Origin: Blastomonas sp.
Lineage (GTDB): Bacteria > Pseudomonadota > Alphaproteobacteria > Sphingomonadales > Sphingomonadaceae
NCBI RefSeq assembly: GCF_030373265.1
Contig: NZ_JAUCZC010000009.1
Span: 62,001 to 126,000 of the forward strand
Reading direction: 5' to 3'
DNA length: 64,000 nucleotides
The translations under genes and the position numbers were made by a program. The notes under the pieces were generated by a model that saw only the letters and a list, made by a program, of their open reading frames with translations, was not told the DNA's origin and searched no databases. This document shows positions 15,772 to 30,921 of this stretch, in pieces. Positions within the stretch are counted from its first letter, which is position 1, and each line of letters starts with the position of its first letter.

Positions 15772-15784
15772 CGCAGCGGATGTA

Positions 15785-15805
15785 TTGACAGGCATTATGC
15801 CAATA
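15785..15805. promoter_or_regulatory. Operator site 1 of the sulfatase regulon, overlapping a promoter
   Basis: TTGACAGGCATTATGCCAATA. The right half (TATGCCAATA) is identical to the right half of the perfect palindrome at 20985-21003 and the left half is partial. TTGACA also reads as a -35 box, with TAGCCT 17 bases later as a weak -10, so a bound repressor would cover the promoter. It lies 41 bases before the DUF1330-like gene, ahead of the unit that includes the TetR gene itself, which points to autoregulation. Confidence 0.65.
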
Positions 15806-15846
15806 TATAGCCTCGCCCTCTAAAATGAGAGTGAGAGGATAGCGTC

Positions 15847-16329
15847 ATGCCCCAGCCGTTCACCGTCTTGAACGAGGTCTTCCCCGGCGACCCGGCGACC
15901 ATGGCAGGGCTGATGCAGCCGGGGCCCGACGGCCCGATTTTCATGATCAACCTGCTCAAGTTCAAGGACAAGGCGGTCTATGACGATGGCCGCGCCACCG
16001 ACCTTAGCGGGCGCGAGGCGTATATGATCTATGGCCGCGCGGTTTCGCAGCTGCTGCCGAAGTTTGGCGGGATCGCAATGTTCGCTGCCGACGTTACCTA
16101 TCTGTCGCTCGGTCAGGTCGGCGAGCTTTGGGACGAGGTCGCGATCGGCGTCTATCCCAAGCGCGGCGATATGGTCCGGATGTCGATGTCCGAAGAATGG
16201 CGCGAAATTGCGGTGCACCGCAGCGCGGGCCTCGACGGGCAGCTCAACATCGAGACCGTGCTTTCGACCGAGGCGATGGCCATGCCGTGGCTGCAACCTA
16301 TCCTAGCGCAGGTCGGCGCGAAGGGGTGA
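15847..16329 (+). CDS. DUF1330-like protein
   Basis: A 160-residue protein whose IFMINLLKFKDKAVYDDG and EAYMIYGRAVSQLLPKFGG stretches fit the DUF1330 family of small dimeric alpha/beta-barrel proteins. No enzyme activity is established for this family. No signal peptide is seen, so it is probably cytosolic. It is the first gene of a unit with tetR (32-base gap) and the formylglycine-generating enzyme. Placement behind operator site 1 makes it part of the sulfatase regulon, perhaps acting on a desulfated product, though this is inference. Confidence 0.72.
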   Translation: MPQPFTVLNEVFPGDPATMAGLMQPGPDGPIFMINLLKFKDKAVYDDGRATDLSGREAYMIYGRAVSQLLPKFGGIAMFAADVTYLSLGQVGELWDEVAIGVYPKRGDMVRMSMSEEWREIAVHRSAGLDGQLNIETVLSTEAMAMPWLQPILAQVGAKG

Positions 16330-16361
16330 CAGACGCAAGGCAGCAGACTAAGGCGTCTTAC

Positions 16362-16958
16362 ATGACTGAAACACCCCAGGACCCCGCGCCAACTCCCCAT
16401 CCCGATGGCCGCAAACAGCGCAGCGAGCGCAGCCGCCTCGCGATTGTCGATGCGATGCTCGACATCATCATGGGCGGCAAGATGGAACCCAGCGCTGCCG
16501 AAATCGCCGAGCGTGCCGGTGTCAGCGCGCGCACCGTGTTTCGCCACTTCGAGGAAATGGACAGTCTTTACAGCGAGATGACCGAACGGATGGAGGCACA
16601 GATCATGCCCATCATCCAACAGCCGTTCACCGGCGATGGCTGGCAGGCGCAACTCGACCAGTTGCTCGAACGCCGTGCGACGATCTACGAAAAGATCATG
16701 CCGCTCAAGATCGCCGCCAGCATCCGGAGGTTCAGTTCGCAGTATCTGATGCTCAACTACCAGCGCTTCCTGCATCTCGAGCGGACCGGGCTGGAGAACG
16801 TGCTGCCCGAGCCGGTGCGCCGCAACGCCACCCAGTTCTCGGCGATCGAGATGTGCGCGGGCTTCCAGACCTGGCGCAGGCTGCGGCAGGACCAGAATCT
16901 GTCGATCGAACAGGCCGCCGATGTCGTGAAGCTGACCATCACCAAATTGCTCGACTGA
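16362..16958 (+). CDS. TetR family transcriptional regulator, candidate repressor of the sulfatase genes
   Basis: A 198-residue one-domain-pair regulator. The N-terminal HTH is EPSAAEIAERAGVSARTVFRHFEEMDSLYSEM at about residues 43-74. The helical ligand-binding part has a WRRLRQDQNLSIEQAADVV segment near the end, typical of a TetR C-terminal region. The start is at MTETPQDP. An unstructured tail of about 20 residues precedes the HTH. It lies between a DUF1330-like gene and the FGE gene, with only five bases to the FGE start, so the three are co-transcribed. Its likely target is the near-palindrome found at three places within 7 kb. The inducer is unknown. Confidence 0.88.
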   Translation: MTETPQDPAPTPHPDGRKQRSERSRLAIVDAMLDIIMGGKMEPSAAEIAERAGVSARTVFRHFEEMDSLYSEMTERMEAQIMPIIQQPFTGDGWQAQLDQLLERRATIYEKIMPLKIAASIRRFSSQYLMLNYQRFLHLERTGLENVLPEPVRRNATQFSAIEMCAGFQTWRRLRQDQNLSIEQAADVVKLTITKLLD

Positions 16959-16963
16959 TCGCT

Positions 16964-17896
16964 GTGCGCGGAGCGCTTGTTCTGGTGTGCGCCGCGTCGC
17001 TCGCCTTGCCCGCGTGCACCGGTCAGCCAGCGGCTCAGCCAGACCAGCAGACCGCGACCCGCCCCGGTTGCCCAGCGGATGCGTTCGAACCCGGGCGCTT
17101 CATCCCCCTGCCCGCAGGGTCCTTCCTCAAGGGCGCCGATCCGCTGTATCCCGAGGAGAGCCCGTCGATGCGGCTCAGCGTCAGCGGCTTTGCGATCCAG
17201 AGCCACGAGGTGACCAACGACCAGTTCGCTGCGTTCGTGCAGGCAACCGGCTATATCACCGAGGCGGAGACAGCCGCGACCAGCGACGATCCCGCAGCCG
17301 GATCAGCGCTGTTCCTGCGCGACGCTGACGGGCGCAACGGCCGCTGGGTGCTGCGCAAGGGCGCGACCTGGCGCGAACCCGAGGGCAAGGGGTCCTCGAT
17401 CGCGGGCAAGGGTCGCCACCCGGTGGTGCACGTCACGCTCGCCGATGCGCGCGCCTATGCCAAATGGGCGGGCGGACGCCTGCCGACCGAGGAGGAATGG
17501 GAATATGCCGCGAGCACCGGCCTGCCCGATCCGGCCAACCGCTTTTCGGGCGCGGTCGATGATTCCGGCACGCCGCGCGCCAACCACTGGCAGGGCGTGT
17601 TTCCGGTGGTCGACGAAGGCAAGGATGGCTTTTCGGGCACCGCGCCCGCGGCCTGTTTTCCTGCCGACCGCAACGGCGTGCACGACCTGATCGGCAATGT
17701 CTGGGAATGGACCGACAGCCCGGTCGACGAGGCCCGGATGATCATCAAGGGCGGCAGCTGGCTGTGCGCCGCGAACTTCTGTGCGCGCTATCGTCCGGCG
17801 GCGCGCCAGCCGCAGGAAAACGACTTTTCCTCCAACCATATCGGCTTTCGCATCATCCGCGATGCCGCAGCGCCAGCGCCAGGAACAGCGCGATGA
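16964..17896 (+). CDS. Exported formylglycine-generating enzyme (sulfatase-modifying factor)
   Basis: A 310-residue SUMF1/FGE-family protein. The GTG start gives RGALVLVCAASLALPAC, a signal peptide with a lipobox-like LPAC and Cys18 as lipidation candidate, so the enzyme should sit in the periplasm. The C-terminus has KGGSWLCAANFCARYRPAAR with Cys268 and Cys273 in the same spacing as the two copper-binding catalytic cysteines of aerobic FGE, which are lost in many other family members. GNVWEW and the FRIIR ending also fit. It should convert the CxPxR cysteine of sulfatases to formylglycine. It directly follows the tetR gene, and its 3' end overlaps the convergent membrane gene by 44 bases. 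Confidence 0.88.
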   Translation: MRGALVLVCAASLALPACTGQPAAQPDQQTATRPGCPADAFEPGRFIPLPAGSFLKGADPLYPEESPSMRLSVSGFAIQSHEVTNDQFAAFVQATGYITEAETAATSDDPAAGSALFLRDADGRNGRWVLRKGATWREPEGKGSSIAGKGRHPVVHVTLADARAYAKWAGGRLPTEEEWEYAASTGLPDPANRFSGAVDDSGTPRANHWQGVFPVVDEGKDGFSGTAPAACFPADRNGVHDLIGNVWEWTDSPVDEARMIIKGGSWLCAANFCARYRPAARQPQENDFSSNHIGFRIIRDAAAPAPGTAR

Positions 17897-18275
17897 TCGG
17901 CAGCGCGACCAGCACCGCGTAGCTTTCGGGCGGGTGATGGGTGCCGGGTTTGAGCACCCAGAAATTGAGCGCGTGCAAGGTCCGTTCGAGCAGCAGCAAC
18001 GTCAGTGCCAGCGGGACCAGAGCGCGATAACGCAAAGCGATCGCCAGCATCGTCAGCCCCCAGACGATCTGCGTCGCGCCCGCCCAGGCGAACAGCCCGA
18101 TGGTGCGCCCACCGTCCCGTGCCAGATCGAGCCCGGCGATCACCCCCGCCCCGCCATCGGGCAGAAAGACATGGATCGCGCCCGGCACGACCGACAACAC
18201 GCCGCACAGCACCAGAAATCGCGACGATGCCGTGGCGGGCAAGCGCGTCTCGGGCGCAGGCAGCAGGTCGGCCAT
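17853..18275 (-). CDS. Small four-helix membrane protein of unknown function
   Basis: A 140-residue protein with four hydrophobic segments at about 20-38, 60-80, 85-102 and 118-137. No catalytic motif is recognised. Charged residues are few and include RDGGRTIG and ERTLHALNFW. It starts on the ATG that overlaps the sulfatase stop (TGATG), so it is translated with the upstream sulfatase and belongs to the same unit. Its 3' end runs 44 bases into the FGE gene on the other strand. It could be a DUF4345/DoxX-like protein, but I cannot assign it firmly. Confidence 0.72.
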   Translation of the reverse strand: MADLLPAPETRLPATASSRFLVLCGVLSVVPGAIHVFLPDGGAGVIAGLDLARDGGRTIGLFAWAGATQIVWGLTMLAIALRYRALVPLALTLLLLERTLHALNFWVLKPGTHHPPESYAVLVALPIIALFLALALRHRG

Positions 18276-19936
18276 CAATTGGGCCAGTAGATATACGGAT
18301 CACCCTTTTTGAACTTGACGTTCAGCGGCTTGTCGATCGCCACCGGCGCCTCGATCGTGTGCGGATACAGCGGCTTGCGCGCGCCTTGCTGGTGCTTGGC
18401 GAGCAGCGCCTTGAGCTCGGTCACCTTGGCCGGATTGCTTGCTGCAAGATCGCGCTTTTCGGTGGGATCCTGCTTCAGGTTGAACAGCCAGGTCTTGGCC
18501 GGACGTTCGGTGACCTGCAGCTTCCAGTCCCCTTGCCGCACCACCTTGTAATAAGCGCTCTGCCAGTAGATTGCGTCGTCGGGCCGCTTGCCCACCGGAT
18601 TGGCGGGATCGTCGCCGAGCAGGTCGACGCCATCGATGATAAGATCGGCGGGCAAGGTTGCGCCGCCCGCCTTGGCGAAGGTCGGCATCAGGTCGATATG
18701 CGCCACCGGCGTGTCCACCACCGTGCCGGGCTTGATCCGTCCGGGCCAGCGCACGAACATCGGCACGCGGATACCGCCTTCGAACAGCGTGAGCTTCCAG
18801 CCGCGATACGGCGCGTTGATCTGGGGGAGACCGACATAGCCCGCGCCGCCATTGTCGCTCGAGAACACGATGATTGTGTTGTCGTCGAGCCCCTGCTCTT
18901 TCAGCGACGCCATGATCCGCCCGACGCTGCGGTCGAGCGCGCGAACCATCGCGGCGTAGACCCGCAACCGGTGCGGCTTGATGTCGCCGACCGCCTCGTA
19001 GTCGGCCTTGGTCGCCTGCAGCGGGGTGTGGACGTTCCAGTGCGCAAGGTAGAGGAAGAACGGCCGGTTGCGGTTGGCCTCGATCACCTTGATCGCCTCG
19101 TCGGTCCAGTAATCGGCGAGATAGCCCTTGGGCTTGAACCAGTCGCCGCCATTGTAGCTGTTGGCATATTGCATCCGCGCCCACAGGAACTTGTCGATCG
19201 GATCGAAGGGCAGCTTGGCGTTGACCGTATTGGGATCGTCCTCGGGCAGGTGCAGCGCGCTGGCCATCAACAGGCTCTCGTCAAACCCCTGCGCATTGGC
19301 GCCGAACTCGGGTCCATCGCCCAGATGCCATTTGCCGATATGCACGCTGTGATAGCCTGCGGGCTTGAGGATCTCAGCGATCGTCTGCTCGCTGCCGGGA
19401 AGGCCCTGGCCGTCGAAGCTGGGCGCGCCCTCCACCGCGGCTTCCTTGTAGGTCAGCGGCGGCAGACCCGAATCCATTTCGTCGGACAGCGCCGAAACGA
19501 TGCGGCCCATGCCGTCGGGCGTCGGCGTAAACTCGAAACCGGTGCGGGTGGGGTAACGCCCGGTCAGGATCATCGCGCGCGAGGGCGCACAGCTCGCGGT
19601 ACCGGCATAGGCGTTGGAATAGATCGCGCCCTCGCCCGCGAGCCGATCGATGTTCGGCGTCGGCACCATGCCGCCAGCGACCCCGCCGCCAAAGGTCGAG
19701 ATATCGTTGATGCCAAGGTCGTCGGCGAGGATGAAGACGATGTTGGGCGGGCGCTGGTCCGCTGGCACCGCGGGCGCATCCGGCCCCCTCTGCCACGCCA
19801 CATCCCGATTGGGCCCGACATCGTGCTTGCCGAAGTTGGCCGCTGCAAACAGCAGCACCGTGCTCTTGTTGAACCATGCCCAGGTTCCGCCTGCCAGCAG
19901 CAGAACGAGCAGAGCGATCAGACCCTTGCGGATCAT
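18275..19936 (-). CDS. Arylsulfatase-type sulfatase with CAPSR site
   Basis: A 553-residue sulfatase. It has an N-terminal hydrophobic segment (residues 5-21, signal peptide or anchor), then PNIVFILADDLGIND with the first metal-binding aspartates. The modification site is SCAPSRAMILTGRYPTRTG with Cys116 as the future formylglycine. The second signature GYHSVHIGKWHLGDGPEFG and the metal site FSSDNGG follow. It hydrolyses a sulfate ester in the periplasm. The start at MIRKGLIALL overlaps the stop of the GST-like gene by four bases (ATGA). Together with the membrane gene downstream the unit is GST-like, sulfatase, membrane protein. The substrate is unknown. Confidence 0.92.
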   Translation of the reverse strand: MIRKGLIALLVLLLAGGTWAWFNKSTVLLFAAANFGKHDVGPNRDVAWQRGPDAPAVPADQRPPNIVFILADDLGINDISTFGGGVAGGMVPTPNIDRLAGEGAIYSNAYAGTASCAPSRAMILTGRYPTRTGFEFTPTPDGMGRIVSALSDEMDSGLPPLTYKEAAVEGAPSFDGQGLPGSEQTIAEILKPAGYHSVHIGKWHLGDGPEFGANAQGFDESLLMASALHLPEDDPNTVNAKLPFDPIDKFLWARMQYANSYNGGDWFKPKGYLADYWTDEAIKVIEANRNRPFFLYLAHWNVHTPLQATKADYEAVGDIKPHRLRVYAAMVRALDRSVGRIMASLKEQGLDDNTIIVFSSDNGGAGYVGLPQINAPYRGWKLTLFEGGIRVPMFVRWPGRIKPGTVVDTPVAHIDLMPTFAKAGGATLPADLIIDGVDLLGDDPANPVGKRPDDAIYWQSAYYKVVRQGDWKLQVTERPAKTWLFNLKQDPTEKRDLAASNPAKVTELKALLAKHQQGARKPLYPHTIEAPVAIDKPLNVKFKKGDPYIYWPN

Positions 19937-20961
19937 GCCGCCGGTTCCGCTACGAACATCTCGTTGCATCCGGTTCCCGCGAGCAGCGCGTCGAGCGCCT
20001 GCCTCGCGTCTTCGGACAAGGCCTCGCGCGCCGCACGCAGCGTCAGCAGGCACTTGGCCTGGTAAGGGAACACCGGCTGGGTCCAAAGCTGACCATCGAT
20101 GGTCGCCTCGAACTCGCTTTTTCCAGCCGCGGCGGCCTGCGCATTGGCGAGCAGGAACGGCACATAGACGCGGCCGATCTCGGCGAGCAGCTCGCCCAGA
20201 TGCCCCCACAAAGAGGCAAGCCCAAGCCACTGGCCATCAGGAAGACCCGACAGGTCTTCGACCCGGTCGAGCCAGGCGCGCAGACGCGGCGAGGCTGCGG
20301 CCATGATCCGCGCCGGCGTGGGATCGACGATGCCCAATTGGGTCAGTTGGCCATAGATCGCGAAATCCGCCGCCGAGGGGCGCGTGCCGAGCACGAAGCC
20401 CTGGCGCTGGACGATGCGGTCGAAAATGCCGACCAGCCTTTTGTAACTCGCCTCGATGATCGGTGCCGTGGTGTCGTTCGAGCCGACAACATACAGCCGG
20501 TCGATCTGCCGCTTGGCAAAGCCATCCGCCATCGGTCTGGCAACAGCGTCAGTGTAGGTGCTGTCCTGCCAGAAGATCAGCAGCGGCCCGGCATTGGCGG
20601 CGTCCTCGCTGTAATGCCAGCGATAGTGGAACATTGCCTTGGTCATCCACTCGTCGGCAAAGTCCTCGATCAGGATGTCGAGGAAACGCAGCAGTTCGTC
20701 CTCGGGGATGACCGACCGCCCGGCGTGCTCGGCCTCCAGCCGCCGGATGATCGGCGTGGAATCGACCACTGCCTCGCGCGCATCGCCCTCCCCGAAATAC
20801 ACCGTCGGCAGCAGCTTGACCTTGGGCGCGGGATAGCCGGGCATCGGGTTCATATGGCTGCCCCAGATCATCCGGTGCGCGATCCGGCGATAGCGCAGCA
20901 ACGCCAGCATCTTGCGCGAATATGGCGATCCCGGAGCCCCGAGCAGTTCGACCGCGTGCAT
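19933..20961 (-). CDS. Glutathione S-transferase family protein
   Basis: A 342-residue protein with an N-terminal thioredoxin-like GST domain (VELLGAPGSPYSRKMLALLRY, Ser or Tyr as possible catalytic residue, then LLPTVYF and DSTPIIRRLE). The long helical C-terminal domain includes GTRPSAADFAIYGQLTQLG. It is longer than usual GSTs. The start is set at MHAVELLG because GGAGG lies five bases upstream, and in-frame ATGs further upstream run into the operator. It heads a unit with a sulfatase, which suggests a role in handling the sulfatase substrate or product, for example glutathione conjugation or ether cleavage. No reaction can be assigned. Confidence 0.82.
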   Translation of the reverse strand: MHAVELLGAPGSPYSRKMLALLRYRRIAHRMIWGSHMNPMPGYPAPKVKLLPTVYFGEGDAREAVVDSTPIIRRLEAEHAGRSVIPEDELLRFLDILIEDFADEWMTKAMFHYRWHYSEDAANAGPLLIFWQDSTYTDAVARPMADGFAKRQIDRLYVVGSNDTTAPIIEASYKRLVGIFDRIVQRQGFVLGTRPSAADFAIYGQLTQLGIVDPTPARIMAAASPRLRAWLDRVEDLSGLPDGQWLGLASLWGHLGELLAEIGRVYVPFLLANAQAAAAGKSEFEATIDGQLWTQPVFPYQAKCLLTLRAAREALSEDARQALDALLAGTGCNEMFVAEPAA

Positions 20962-20984
20962 CGCATCCTCCGACATGGTTTTTA

Positions 20985-21005
20985 TTGGCATAGGCTATGC
21001 CAATA
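20985..21005. promoter_or_regulatory. Operator site 2 of the sulfatase regulon (perfect palindrome)
   Basis: TTGGCATAGGCTATGCCAA (20985-21003) is a perfect 9-1-9 palindrome, followed by TA. It lies 24 bases before the chosen start of the GST-like gene, in the gap between it and the end of the second sulfatase gene. Length and symmetry fit a TetR-dimer site. It matches the sites at 15785 and 22875. Confidence 0.8.
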
Positions 21006-21016
21006 CCATGAAGAGG

Positions 21017-22837
21017 TCAAGCCGCGCGCGCTTGCCTCCGGCGGCGGAACAGCCTGACCAGGCCATAAATGCCGAGCACGATCGCCAGCGCCACCCCGGC
21101 CAGCACCCACCAATAGTGCCCAGCCATCTTCTTGAGCGTATTGATGCCGATCTGTTGGGTGGAATCATAGCCATCGGGCATGTCCAGCACGCCATTGCGT
21201 CGGGCATAAGCGCGGTAATCCGCCATCAGTTCGCGAAACTTTGCCGGGTCCGCCTGGCTCAGGTCCCTGGTCTCGCCCGGATCGCTGGATATATCGAACA
21301 AGCGCCATTCGCCATCGCCATAGGGCTTGAGGTTGCGCACCAGCTTGTAGGCCCCCTTGAACAGCGCCGCGTTGCCCGAGACCTCGAAACCCACCGGCAC
21401 GTCTGCCGAGCGCACGGCATCCGCCTCGCCCGTGAGCAGCGGCACCAGCGACGCGCCGTCGAACGCATCGGCATTCGCGCTGCCGCCGGCCATCGCCAGC
21501 ACTGTCGGCGCGATATCGCTGACCAGCGTCATCGCAGCGCTCGGCCCCGCCGGGGCGATCCCGGGCCCGGCCATGATCATCGGCACATGCAGCCCGCCCT
21601 CGCTGGTGTAGAATTTGAACATCGCGCCCGGCGAGGCTGCGGCATTGGCGAACTCTGGTCCGATAAACCCATAGGTCCCTTTCTCGCCCCAGTTGTCCGC
21701 CGAAACGCTATAGCCATTGGCGCGGGTCCACAGGTCCATCATGCGCGATCCCGCCATCGGGTTGCTCGGCTCGGGGCCGTTGTCCGAGGTGAACACGAAC
21801 ACCGTGTTGTCATATTGCCCGGTGGCCTTGAGATGCGCGACCAGCCGGCCGATATGGTGGTCCATCGCCTCGATCATCCCGGCGTTGATCGCCATGTGCC
21901 GCGCGAACAGCGCCTGCTCCTTTGTGCTCAGGCTTTCCCATGCGCGCAGGCCCTGGGGCGGTTCAGCGAGCGGCGCACCCTGCGGGATCAGCCCCATCGC
22001 CTGCGCGCGCTGCCAGCGCGCGGTGCGCATCGCCGCCCAGCCCTCGCGATAGGTGTCGGCATATTTGCGGGTGAACTCTGCTGGGGCCTGCACCGGAATA
22101 TGGACTGCCTGGAAGCCGATATAGGCAAAGAACGGCTGATCATCGCGTCCGCCGTCGATATAGTCGATCATCCGGTCGATGAGGAAGCGGGACGAATAGA
22201 AATCCTTGGGCAGGGTAGCGGGCTTGCCGTCCTCGAACCAGGGCGCCGTCTTGTAATACGGCATATAGGATTTCTGCTCCCAGTTGTCCGCGCCCGAGGC
22301 ATCGAGGATGAACGAGCGGTCAAAGCCGTGATCGCCCGGCAGGTCGCCCGGCCCATGGCCCAGATGCCACTTGCCGGTCATGTAGGTGCGATAGCCCTGC
22401 CCCTTCAGCCGCTCGGAAATCGTGGTGACGCCCGGCTCGAAGCGCAGCGAATAGCCGGGCTTGCCGATATGCTCGGCAGGGATCACCTCCTGGATGGTCG
22501 AGACCCCGGTACGGTGATTGTCGAGCCCGGTGAGCAGCATCGCGCGCGATGGCGAGCACAGGGGCGACGTGTAATACCGGGTGAACATCCGTCCGCGCTG
22601 CGCCAGCATGTCGATATTCGGCGTATTCGCCTCGCCGCCGTAAATGCCCAGATCCATCAAAGCCAGATCATCGGCCAGCAGCACGACGAAATTGGGTGAC
22701 GCGCCTGTCTTGGGGGCAGCGGCGACGGGATCCGTGCTGTCCGGACCAGACATTGCGAGCGGGGCAGCCAGCGCAATCGACACGGCACCTGACGCGGCGA
22801 GCAGCAGCCACGCGATTTTTTGCCCGATGCCTGTCAC
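21017..22837 (-). CDS. Arylsulfatase-type sulfatase with CSPSR site and C-terminal membrane anchor
   Basis: A 606-residue sulfatase. An N-terminal hydrophobic segment (about 8-28) acts as signal or anchor. PNFVVLLADDLALMDLGIYGG gives metal ligands. PLCSPSRAMLLTGLDNHRTG holds Cys94, the formylglycine precursor. MTGKWHLGHGPGDLPGDHGFD and FTSDNGPEP complete the active site. A membrane helix lies near the C-terminus (YWWVLAGVALAIVLGIYGLV) followed by an arginine-rich tail, so the enzyme is probably tethered on the periplasmic face. The GTG start at 22837 is chosen because GAGAGG precedes it and the upstream in-frame ATG touches the operator. It is not closely similar to the neighbouring sulfatase. 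Confidence 0.9.
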   Translation of the reverse strand: MTGIGQKIAWLLLAASGAVSIALAAPLAMSGPDSTDPVAAAPKTGASPNFVVLLADDLALMDLGIYGGEANTPNIDMLAQRGRMFTRYYTSPLCSPSRAMLLTGLDNHRTGVSTIQEVIPAEHIGKPGYSLRFEPGVTTISERLKGQGYRTYMTGKWHLGHGPGDLPGDHGFDRSFILDASGADNWEQKSYMPYYKTAPWFEDGKPATLPKDFYSSRFLIDRMIDYIDGGRDDQPFFAYIGFQAVHIPVQAPAEFTRKYADTYREGWAAMRTARWQRAQAMGLIPQGAPLAEPPQGLRAWESLSTKEQALFARHMAINAGMIEAMDHHIGRLVAHLKATGQYDNTVFVFTSDNGPEPSNPMAGSRMMDLWTRANGYSVSADNWGEKGTYGFIGPEFANAAASPGAMFKFYTSEGGLHVPMIMAGPGIAPAGPSAAMTLVSDIAPTVLAMAGGSANADAFDGASLVPLLTGEADAVRSADVPVGFEVSGNAALFKGAYKLVRNLKPYGDGEWRLFDISSDPGETRDLSQADPAKFRELMADYRAYARRNGVLDMPDGYDSTQQIGINTLKKMAGHYWWVLAGVALAIVLGIYGLVRLFRRRRQARAA

Positions 22838-22874
22838 GCGCCCGCCTCTCTTCAAACATGGCCTTACAGCCATT

Positions 22875-22893
22875 TTGACATACGCTATGACAT
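22875..22893. promoter_or_regulatory. Operator site 3 of the sulfatase regulon
   Basis: TTGACATACGCTATGACAT matches site 2 at 16 of 19 positions, with the same central GCTATG and the same half-site arrangement. It lies 37 bases before the GTG start of the second sulfatase, like the other two sites (24 and 41 bases). Confidence 0.75.
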
Positions 22894-22934
22894 ATCCATG
22901 ATGGGCGCAAGACCGGCCGATGGCGTGCGACGCG

Positions 22935-30293: not shown

Positions 30294-30379
30294 CCGCACG
30301 ATACGCAGGAATAGTCAAACGGATCGGTTACATAGTGACATAGCGACTGTCATTAAACCGTAACATGGGTTCATTTAAT

Positions 30380-30424
30380 GGCGGGTCGGTGCGTAACTTG
30401 CCTCAAAGCCGCGACCGACCCGCC
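30380..30424. repeat. Long inverted repeat in the gap between DUF2147 gene and hypothetical gene
   Basis: GGCGGGTCGGT at 30380-30390 pairs perfectly with ACCGACCCGCC at 30414-30424 over a 23-base loop. A smaller TGCCTG/CAGGCA pair follows at about 30431-30464. There is no U-tract, so it is not a standard terminator on either strand. It lies between two convergent genes and may act as a bidirectional transcription block or an RNA structure. Confidence 0.6.
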
Positions 30425-30482
30425 TCTTCCTGCCTGCAACCGTTTGCGACCCGGCAGGCATGAAGACCCAGAACCTGATTGG

Positions 30483-30821
30483 TCAGTTTTGCACGCGATC
30501 TCTTTGGTGACCGAGCAGAGCCTTGTCGTTAACATGGCGGTCCGCTTCCCACAGCAGCGATACGGTCGTGCGCAGTCCCTGCTTGTCCGACCGCCAGAAA
30601 CCGGCGTCGCGCAGCTTGACCGCGATCGAGCGCAGCGACTGCCGCGCCTCTGCAACATCGTCGCTCCGCTCTTCGCCGCCCGCATCCTGCAAGGCCTGAC
30701 GCAGCCGCAGCGAGGCAGCTTCGAAGGCCTGCTGGTCAGCAAGGCTGATCTCGGCAGGACGCTGTTCGTGCTCACGATCAAACCTGCGGTCGGGACTCGA
30801 AAGGGGGGCGGGCGTGTTCAT
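30483..30821 (-). CDS. Hypothetical protein, charged and helical
   Basis: A 112-residue protein with a mainly helical, charged composition and repeated Arg/Glu/Asp heptad-like spacing (FEAASLRLRQALQDA, ARQSLRSIAVKLRDAGFW). There is no membrane segment or signal peptide. I recognise no family. The region upstream (30822-30921) is AT-richer and could hold its promoter. It is convergent with the DUF2147 gene. The frame has normal third-position GC bias, which favours a real gene. A competing overlapping frame on the same strand is less biased. Confidence 0.55.
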   Translation of the reverse strand: MNTPAPLSSPDRRFDREHEQRPAEISLADQQAFEAASLRLRQALQDAGGEERSDDVAEARQSLRSIAVKLRDAGFWRSDKQGLRTTVSLLWEADRHVNDKALLGHQRDRVQN

Positions 30822-30921
30822 CCCGCCTCTCTACAGAAGTTTCCGACGATTGTAAGTTTATTACCGTAAAGCGATTTAATGTAACGAGCGGTTCATCTGG
30901 CGTTCACCCCGACACCGGTGT

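Follow-up and report, generated by a model that had tools for sequence, protein, structure and literature searches.

We examined a 64,000-nucleotide window of a Blastomonas sp. genome (contig NZ_JAUCZC010000009.1, positions 62,001 to 126,000 of the forward strand; coordinates below count from the first base of this window), in which seven genes, among them two for sulfatases, one for a formylglycine-generating enzyme (FGE) and one for a TetR-family regulator, are interspersed with three copies of a 23-bp operator. The source genome is a 3.66-Mb draft in 58 contigs and is 95.8% complete. The closest named relatives of sulfatase 1 belong to Blastomonas (B. aquatica, 93%; records from the source genome itself were perhaps excluded). 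The features of the locus, together with a possible fourth operator further along the window, are the following:

15783..15805, unstranded: operator 1 (TATTGACAGGCATTATGCCAATA), ahead of the DUF1330-like gene; 30.3 bits; site at the same place in 8/8 Blastomonas-type loci
15847..16329, plus strand: DUF1330-like protein of 160 aa, with a fold resembling dimeric barrels; no signal peptide seen; no Pfam/NCBIfam family
16362..16958, plus strand: TetR-family regulator, 198 aa; PF00440, 28.8 bits (cut-off 24)
16964..17896, plus strand: FGE, GTG start; PF03781, 203 bits; lipoprotein-type signal; both catalytic cysteines
17853..18278, minus strand: small hydrophobic protein, probably membrane-located, 141 aa; encoded last, behind sulfatase 1; no Pfam family; homologues at other loci
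18275..19936, minus strand: sulfatase 1, class I, with CAPSR site; anchor or signal at the N-terminus; PF00884, 194 bits
19933..20976, minus strand: protein resembling glutathione S-transferases (GST-like), 347 aa, with a long C-terminal extension; PF13410 and PF13417
20983..21005, unstranded: operator 2 (TATTGGCATAGGCTATGCCAATA), a perfect palindrome; 39.1 bits; 8/8 Blastomonas-type loci
21017..22873, minus strand: sulfatase 2, class I, CSPSR; PF00884, 202 bits; N-terminus signal-like, membrane helix at the C-terminus; start possibly GTG at 22837
22873..22895, unstranded: operator 3 (TTTTGACATACGCTATGACATAT); 26.2 bits, or 21.1 bits with the window sites left out of the matrix; 8/8 Blastomonas-type loci
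30333..30355, unstranded: possible fourth operator (TAGTGACATAGCGACTGTCATTA); 22 bits; precedes a conserved structured element

All seven genes lie where the initial annotation, made from the sequence alone, had placed them, and its three near-palindromes were recovered at 15785-15805, 20985-21003 and 22875-22893. The middle one is, as claimed, a perfect 9-1-9 palindrome, and in sites 1 and 3 only 5/9 and 6/9 half-site positions pair. The palindromes had also been said to stand 24 to 41 bases before the first gene of each unit, which holds for site 1 (41 bases), but site 2 is 8 bases from the preferred GST-like start at 20976, and site 3 is 1 base from the longest open reading frame of sulfatase 2 or 37 bases from its likelier start, the GTG at 22837. 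Gene packing is tight, with 5 bases between tetR and the FGE gene and 4-base overlaps between the GST-like and sulfatase 1 genes and between sulfatase 1 and the membrane protein gene. Of the three proposed transcription units, units 2 and 3 may be read together: the end of sulfatase 2 is 40 bases from the GST-like start on the same strand, and site 2 falls within this gap.

Sulfatases and their formylglycine-generating enzyme

Both sulfatases belong to class I (S1). Each matches PF00884 (194 and 202 bits), and the C-x-P-x-R sites reported in the initial annotation are present as CAPSR and CSPSR and recur in 108/113 relatives of sulfatase 1 and 66/69 relatives of sulfatase 2; hydrolysis of sulfate esters is the predicted activity of both. 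Among PDB entries, the nearest to sulfatase 1 are carrageenan S1 sulfatases, which means little at such distance, and the nearest to sulfatase 2 is the arylsulfatase 1hdh (E 4e-98), which likewise says little about substrate. Export and membrane attachment are predicted for both enzymes: a hydrophobic N-terminus is found in 102/113 relatives of sulfatase 1 and a C-terminal membrane helix in 66/68 relatives of sulfatase 2, with twin-arginine-like motifs in 6/113 and 3/69 relatives respectively.

The FGE has a human FGE chain as its best PDB match (E 2e-54), scores 203 bits with PF03781 and aligns its WLCAANFC with YMCHRSYC of the human enzyme, so that the retention of both catalytic cysteines, already read from the sequence, is borne out by alignment. 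What had been missed, and what is the oddest part of the system, is its N-terminus (MRGALVLVCAASLALPAC), a lipoprotein-type signal by simple rules that would place the enzyme outside the cytosol. Congeners carry the lipoboxes LAAC, VAGC, IAAC, IAGC, LAGC and LQGC. Across the 62 FGE matches in the collected loci, a lipobox regular expression was satisfied by 56/62 and a two-cysteine expression by 60/62; of the two failures of the latter, L095 reads GGSHLC, keeps its cysteines and belongs to the cytosolic clade, and L172 is truly without the motif. A further 29 loci were added from 349 genomes of the phylum (52 matched), the closest matches being taken, which biases the set toward the window kind. 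The resulting set of 89 FGEs, 86 of them distinct and all keeping both cysteines, comprises 67 with a lipoprotein-like N-terminus under a looser rule, 5 with another hydrophobic N-terminus and 17 with none. Sixteen of these 17 signal-less enzymes form one clade (support 100/99), in which the active site reads GGSHLC in 14/16 and GGSHLCAPNYC in 9 of them; the seventeenth, L136, is placed among the lipoprotein FGEs. Prokaryotic FGE is described as cytosolic in the accessible part of PMC4505483, and cysteine-type sulfatases as typically cytosolic in that of PMC3920027; the present set would depart from both descriptions.

It may nevertheless be that the FGE acts on the sulfatases while they are still in the cytosol and that its hydrophobic N-terminus is only an anchor, in which case it would not differ from the bacterial FGE that has been described. 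The cytosolic location given in the accessible text of PMC4505483 speaks for this, and so does the presence of Sec-like sulfatases beside cytosolic-type FGEs, where 7/19 sulfatases look Sec-like, 5/19 have no clear signal and 7/19 are twin-arginine-like. Against it stand the lipoprotein-type signal in 67/89 FGEs, the hydrophobic N-terminus of 5 more and the confinement of 16/17 signal-less enzymes to one clade, and we regard cytosolic action as unlikely. Sulfatases resembling substrates of twin-arginine translocation (Tat) make up 7/19 of those beside cytosolic-type FGEs vs 12/104 (p 0.011; 3/107 were excluded because they gave no core match). This is only a hint that a cytosolic-type FGE goes with a Tat-exported sulfatase, because several of the 12 begin in a Sec-like way (for example MIRRILLG) and because 7/19 are Sec-like and 5/19 unclear. 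The seven Tat-like sulfatases beside cytosolic-type FGEs (L252, L253, L257, L260, L262, L266 and L267) would be consistent with enzymes that fold and are activated ahead of export.

The genome holds three sulfatases, all with cysteine sites and, by reading, export-type N-termini. The third (L106 on C23; CSPTR, signal-like N-terminus) lies directly 3' of a gene named by reading as a TauD/AtsK-like dioxygenase, and no operator was found in its 4.2-kb locus, where the best score is -6.6 bits. The window FGE is the only true FGE found in the draft genome, in which no match to anSME was obtained either. A second PF03781 protein was rejected as an FGE, since it adjoins an EgtD-like gene and by reading looks like EgtB; EgtB-like and EgtD-like genes (by reading) stand side by side on C35 (L108), as for ergothioneine-type synthesis. 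The description of the system as self-contained, with its own FGE, calls for revision: this sole FGE would also have to serve the third, unlinked sulfatase on C23.

A conserved operator linked to the TetR gene

The operator consensus, refined over 135 distinct sites, is TATTGRCAY-N5-RTGYCAATA, 23 bp in length, the refined matrix being trained on the same loci that it scores. A symmetric seed matrix was built from 13 sites in the window and six same-genus loci. With it, three sites are found at the same three places in 8/8 Blastomonas-type loci, namely the window, six same-genus genomes and L169 (recorded under Sphingomonas sp. 35-24ZXX but identical in gene order), and no further site above 15 bits occurs there; 13 of these 24 sites are the matrix seeds and 11 are non-seed. 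For comparison, 60 stretches around TetR relatives from Sphingomonadaceae were joined with 79 named loci around sulfatase 1 relatives, and from the 140 stretches, including the window, 10 duplicates were dropped, leaving 130, of which 122 lie outside the Blastomonas-type group. These 122 loci contain 124 sites above 15 bits (102 in the 82 TetR-bearing loci and 22 in the 40 others), whereas 100 column-permuted palindromic matrices gave 1.12 sites on average and never more than 6. Only 2/124 fall within annotated homologues, which occupy 21% of the bases, and relative to the seven gene families a site is upstream in 64 cases and just downstream in 8.

A matrix made without the window sites ranks sites 2, 1, 30333 and 3 on top in the 64 kb (38, 28, 22 and 21 bits, the next being 5.7), and one made from outside-group sites only likewise puts sites 1, 2 and 3 and that at 30333 first. 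The full matrix scan covers the window and the fetched loci, and the own genome was searched by patterns. The genome scan proposed in the initial annotation gave, at three mismatches or fewer to the full pattern, only four places in 3.66 Mb: sites 1 and 2, window position 30333 and C21:38250 (13.4 bits). Site 3 is too diverged for the full pattern at this tolerance and was recovered by other patterns. A looser pattern added five genome places, four of which were scored (that on C19 was not); C12:66046 (L038) is operator-like, scoring 16.8 bits on the seed matrix and 11.6 bits on the refined one, and the others fall below 10.

In other loci the operator also precedes members of protein clusters named as alpha/beta hydrolases (30 loci), metallo-beta-lactamase-fold proteins (15), DsbA-like proteins (15) and TonB receptors (10), each name being that of the one representative scanned and the open reading frames being mechanically called, some of them spurious. 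The system appears directed at the breakdown of a hydrophobic sulfate ester. A general sulfur-scavenging response to sulfate starvation, instead of the use of one compound, would be the alternative; two sulfatases of different kinds suggest a broad range, and PAS-type arylsulfatases are sulfur-starvation genes in pseudomonads. The likelier scavenging gene of this genome, however, is the third sulfatase beside its TauD/AtsK-like dioxygenase, which has no operator, and the four kinds of protein listed above as lying behind operators elsewhere look catabolic, so that we consider scavenging distinctly improbable. An extended regulon is suggested by strong sites of operator type that lie apart from all seven families (L084:356, L143:16682, L181:1419 and 15825). 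In three loci an SCP2-like protein follows an operator site.

The operator is also linked to the regulator. Where the TetR is at least 40% identical to that of the window, a site above 11 bits is present in 58/62 loci, and below 40% identity in 14/28, with 0/10 among those without sulfatase 1. A pattern with at most one mismatch is found in 20/298 Sphingomonadaceae genomes, and a reversed control pattern in 1; TetR (E <=1e-20) is encoded in 19/20 strict-site genomes vs 41/278 site-less genomes (p 7.5e-14), G189 being the lone strict-site genome without a close TetR. In 40 loci with sulfatase 1 no TetR was found in the stretch, and their genomes were then profile-searched for it: 28/40 carry it elsewhere (profile E <=5.5e-47), and the other 12 gave a best E of 3.1e-7 or weaker, or nothing. 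A site above 15 bits is present in 15/28 of these loci when TetR is elsewhere vs 0/12 when the genome lacks it (p 9e-4), although near-identical loci (L134-L136, L138, L168) account for 5 of the 15 sites, several stretches are short and many genomes are metagenome-assembled, and the p values are optimistic, the genomes being related and congeners not independent. One of the 12 TetR-lacking genomes reaches 12.1 bits, the best there. The operator thus tends to disappear where the regulator is gone though the sulfatase remains, and this vanishing of sites in TetR-lacking genomes, the best support for the predicted binding, argues that TetR reads the operator.

The regulator carries the TetR_N domain (PF00440) at 28.8 bits over a cut-off of 24 and is the single match in its own genome at E 1e-3, with 10/13 candidates scored. 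Phylogenetic footprinting and the co-occurrence of regulator and operator strongly support the shared-operator regulon, with tetR inside it, that had been proposed. Distant TetR relatives (33-38%; L085, L086, L091, L094, L095, L097 and L098) lie in loci without sulfatases and without operator, several of them near an apparent PEP-CTERM protein, TIR/TPR protein and histidine kinase (named by reading).

The operators could instead be real but serve another regulator, with the TetR a mere passenger of the locus. Direct binding of TetR to the operator is a prediction, 17/40 loci without a nearby TetR keep a site above 11 bits, and one of the 20 strict-site genomes (G189) has no close TetR. Yet all 15 TetR-less loci with a site above 15 bits sit in genomes with TetR elsewhere, with none among the 12 TetR-lacking genomes, a 23-bp palindrome fits a TetR dimer, and a site above 15 bits stands before tetR itself in 14/79 loci outside the genus; we hold a passenger role to be very unlikely. 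That the palindromes arose by chance, or are no more than functionless AT-rich promoter sequence, as the divergence of site 3 and the TTGACA at the start of sites 1 and 3, resembling a -35 box, might suggest, can be dismissed, as it is contradicted by the permuted matrices, the co-occurrence and the 8/8 loci. A consensus promoter scan returned 2 promoter-like sites vs a shuffle mean of 1.3, and hence no evidence for promoter overlap.

Accompanying proteins and a possible fourth site

The AlphaFold model of the GST-like protein (mean pLDDT, the predicted local distance difference test score, 93.7) matches GSTs in fold (best 9qd3, E 1.4e-5), in agreement with the N- and C-terminal GST domains PF13417 and PF13410, both over cut-off; the assignment is one of family and fold, with use of glutathione putative. 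Against a beta-etherase model the protein reaches 21 bits of a cut-off of 440. The DUF1330 label of the initial annotation finds no Pfam family up to E 1, though other searches point toward it: the AlphaFold model (mean pLDDT 88.2) matches RPA0582 in fold (E 1.7e-11), a profile search also leads to RPA0582 (E 3e-27), and 3lo3 is matched as well, RPA0582 and 3lo3 being what we take to be DUF1330 proteins. No export signal was seen in either protein, and the two structure models yield folds and nothing on substrate.

The site at 30333 lies 39 bases after the stop of a gene that we take to be DUF2147-like. Its TGRCA-N7-TGYCA is kept at the syntenic place in 7/7 aligned species, the site scoring 14.5, 20.5, 12.3, 20.1, 21.4 and 6.3 bits in six congeners. 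Its right half also resembles a PhoB box, and the site may be a PhoB box instead of an operator. A conserved double hairpin follows within 30333-30470 (z -5.4; compensatory change in 4/28 pairs), which had no match in Rfam and is possibly a small RNA. Between this hairpin and a second TetR gene, at about 30500-30840 on the minus strand, is a small open reading frame (about 110 aa by reading) whose DNA is partly conserved in congeners.

Proposed mechanism and known relatives

We consider it likely that the locus encodes TetR-controlled periplasmic hydrolysis of a sulfate ester, with formylglycine made outside the cytosol. The TetR protein would bind the 23-bp operators at the promoter of its own unit (DUF1330-like, tetR, FGE), at that of the GST-like, sulfatase 1 and membrane protein genes and at that of sulfatase 2, most likely repressing all three until a sulfated compound or its product binds TetR. 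Both sulfatases would leave the cytosol, probably via Sec, and remain in the inner membrane, sulfatase 1 held by its N-terminal helix and sulfatase 2 by its C-terminal helix. The FGE, exported as a lipoprotein, would convert the active-site cysteine to formylglycine on unfolded sulfatases outside the cytosol; in eukaryotes, FGE acts on unfolded sulfatases in the endoplasmic reticulum. The GST-like and DUF1330-like proteins may then process the imported alcohol or phenol. The substrate would be an organic sulfate ester, and a hydrophobic lipid, sterol or aromatic sulfate is our guess.

Several observations weigh against this mechanism. A clearly hydrophobic N-terminus is found in just 41/69 sulfatase 2 relatives, and 41/60 TetR-bearing Sphingomonadaceae genomes are without a strict-pattern site; because of these two counts our confidence is slightly lowered. 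The lipobox of the window FGE, LPAC, has an atypical proline at -2 and fails the lipobox expression, and the 7/19 Sec-like sulfatases beside cytosolic-type FGEs indicate that Sec export alone does not force periplasmic modification. On the side of regulation, the seed matrix leaves 18/90 TetR-bearing loci, and the refined matrix 13, without a site above 11 bits; taken gene by gene, a site at 15 bits immediately upstream is uncommon outside the group (for example sulfatase 1 in 12/105, tetR in 14/79); and the co-occurrence counts carry the non-independence described above. No candidate substrate is singled out.

A TetR-family repressor of a class I sulfatase is already known in Alphaproteobacteria, where BetI controls the choline sulfatase BetC through a promoter palindrome (accessible part of PMC12442346). 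In the same text, the BetI1 box ATTGACG*CGTCAAT contains the ATTGAC half-site of the window operator and differs from it in length, 14 bp vs 23 bp. The window TetR was rejected as a BetI, as TIGR03384 (cut-off 201) gives 11 genome matches at E 1e-3, none at the window TetR and none over cut-off; sulfatases 1 and 2 were rejected as choline sulfatases, with 128 and 107 bits vs the cut-off of 433 for TIGR03417. The initial annotation did not recognize the system as any described sulfatase cluster. A literature search, mostly at title and abstract level and with subscription papers thinly covered, found no description of such a sulfatase system, and nothing relevant on the operator sequence or the combination of sulfatase and DUF1330, although the principle is familiar from BetI over BetC. 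The motifs of a bile-salt TetR (PMC12882949) and of the IclR-type PheR (PMC13273656), as given in the accessible parts of those papers, differ from the window operator.

Among the enzymes, the closest solved relative of sulfatase 2 is Pseudomonas aeruginosa AtsA (1hdh, E 4e-98), which has the same kind of C-x-P-x-R site. The P. aeruginosa enzyme (PAS) is cytosolic, whereas sulfatase 2 of the window combines a signal-like N-terminus with a membrane helix at its C-terminal end. The FGE shares an FGE-like domain with PvdO and GldK/PorK, both weak matches (52 vs a cut-off of 500 and 65 vs 350 bits), and differs from them in keeping the FGE cysteines. PvdO and GldK/PorK are exported, with the FGE-like domain outside the cytosol. 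AtsA is listed as S1_4 in the accessible part of PMC5066984. With the aerobic FGEs of human and Streptomyces coelicolor the window enzyme shares the family and both active-site cysteines, but prokaryotic FGE is described as cytosolic (accessible part of PMC4505483), whereas the window FGE bears a lipoprotein-type signal.

With TetR control of a class I sulfatase already known, what is new lies in the predicted export of the FGE and in how broad the regulon is. On balance we lean toward a wider reading, in which, across many Alphaproteobacteria and perhaps some Gammaproteobacteria, a lipoprotein FGE would be the bacterial equivalent of the enzyme of the endoplasmic reticulum, activating outside the cytosol those cysteine-type sulfatases that leave through Sec, within one TetR regulon spanning several orders. 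Formylglycine formation is an oxygen- and copper-dependent modification that is used for aldehyde tags. If the reading is true, this chemistry would take place in the bacterial periplasm, contrary to the cytosolic prokaryotic FGE of the accessible part of PMC4505483. The conserved operator would further predict regulon members in many uncharacterized genomes, and through these a search for the sulfate ester with a simple reporter.

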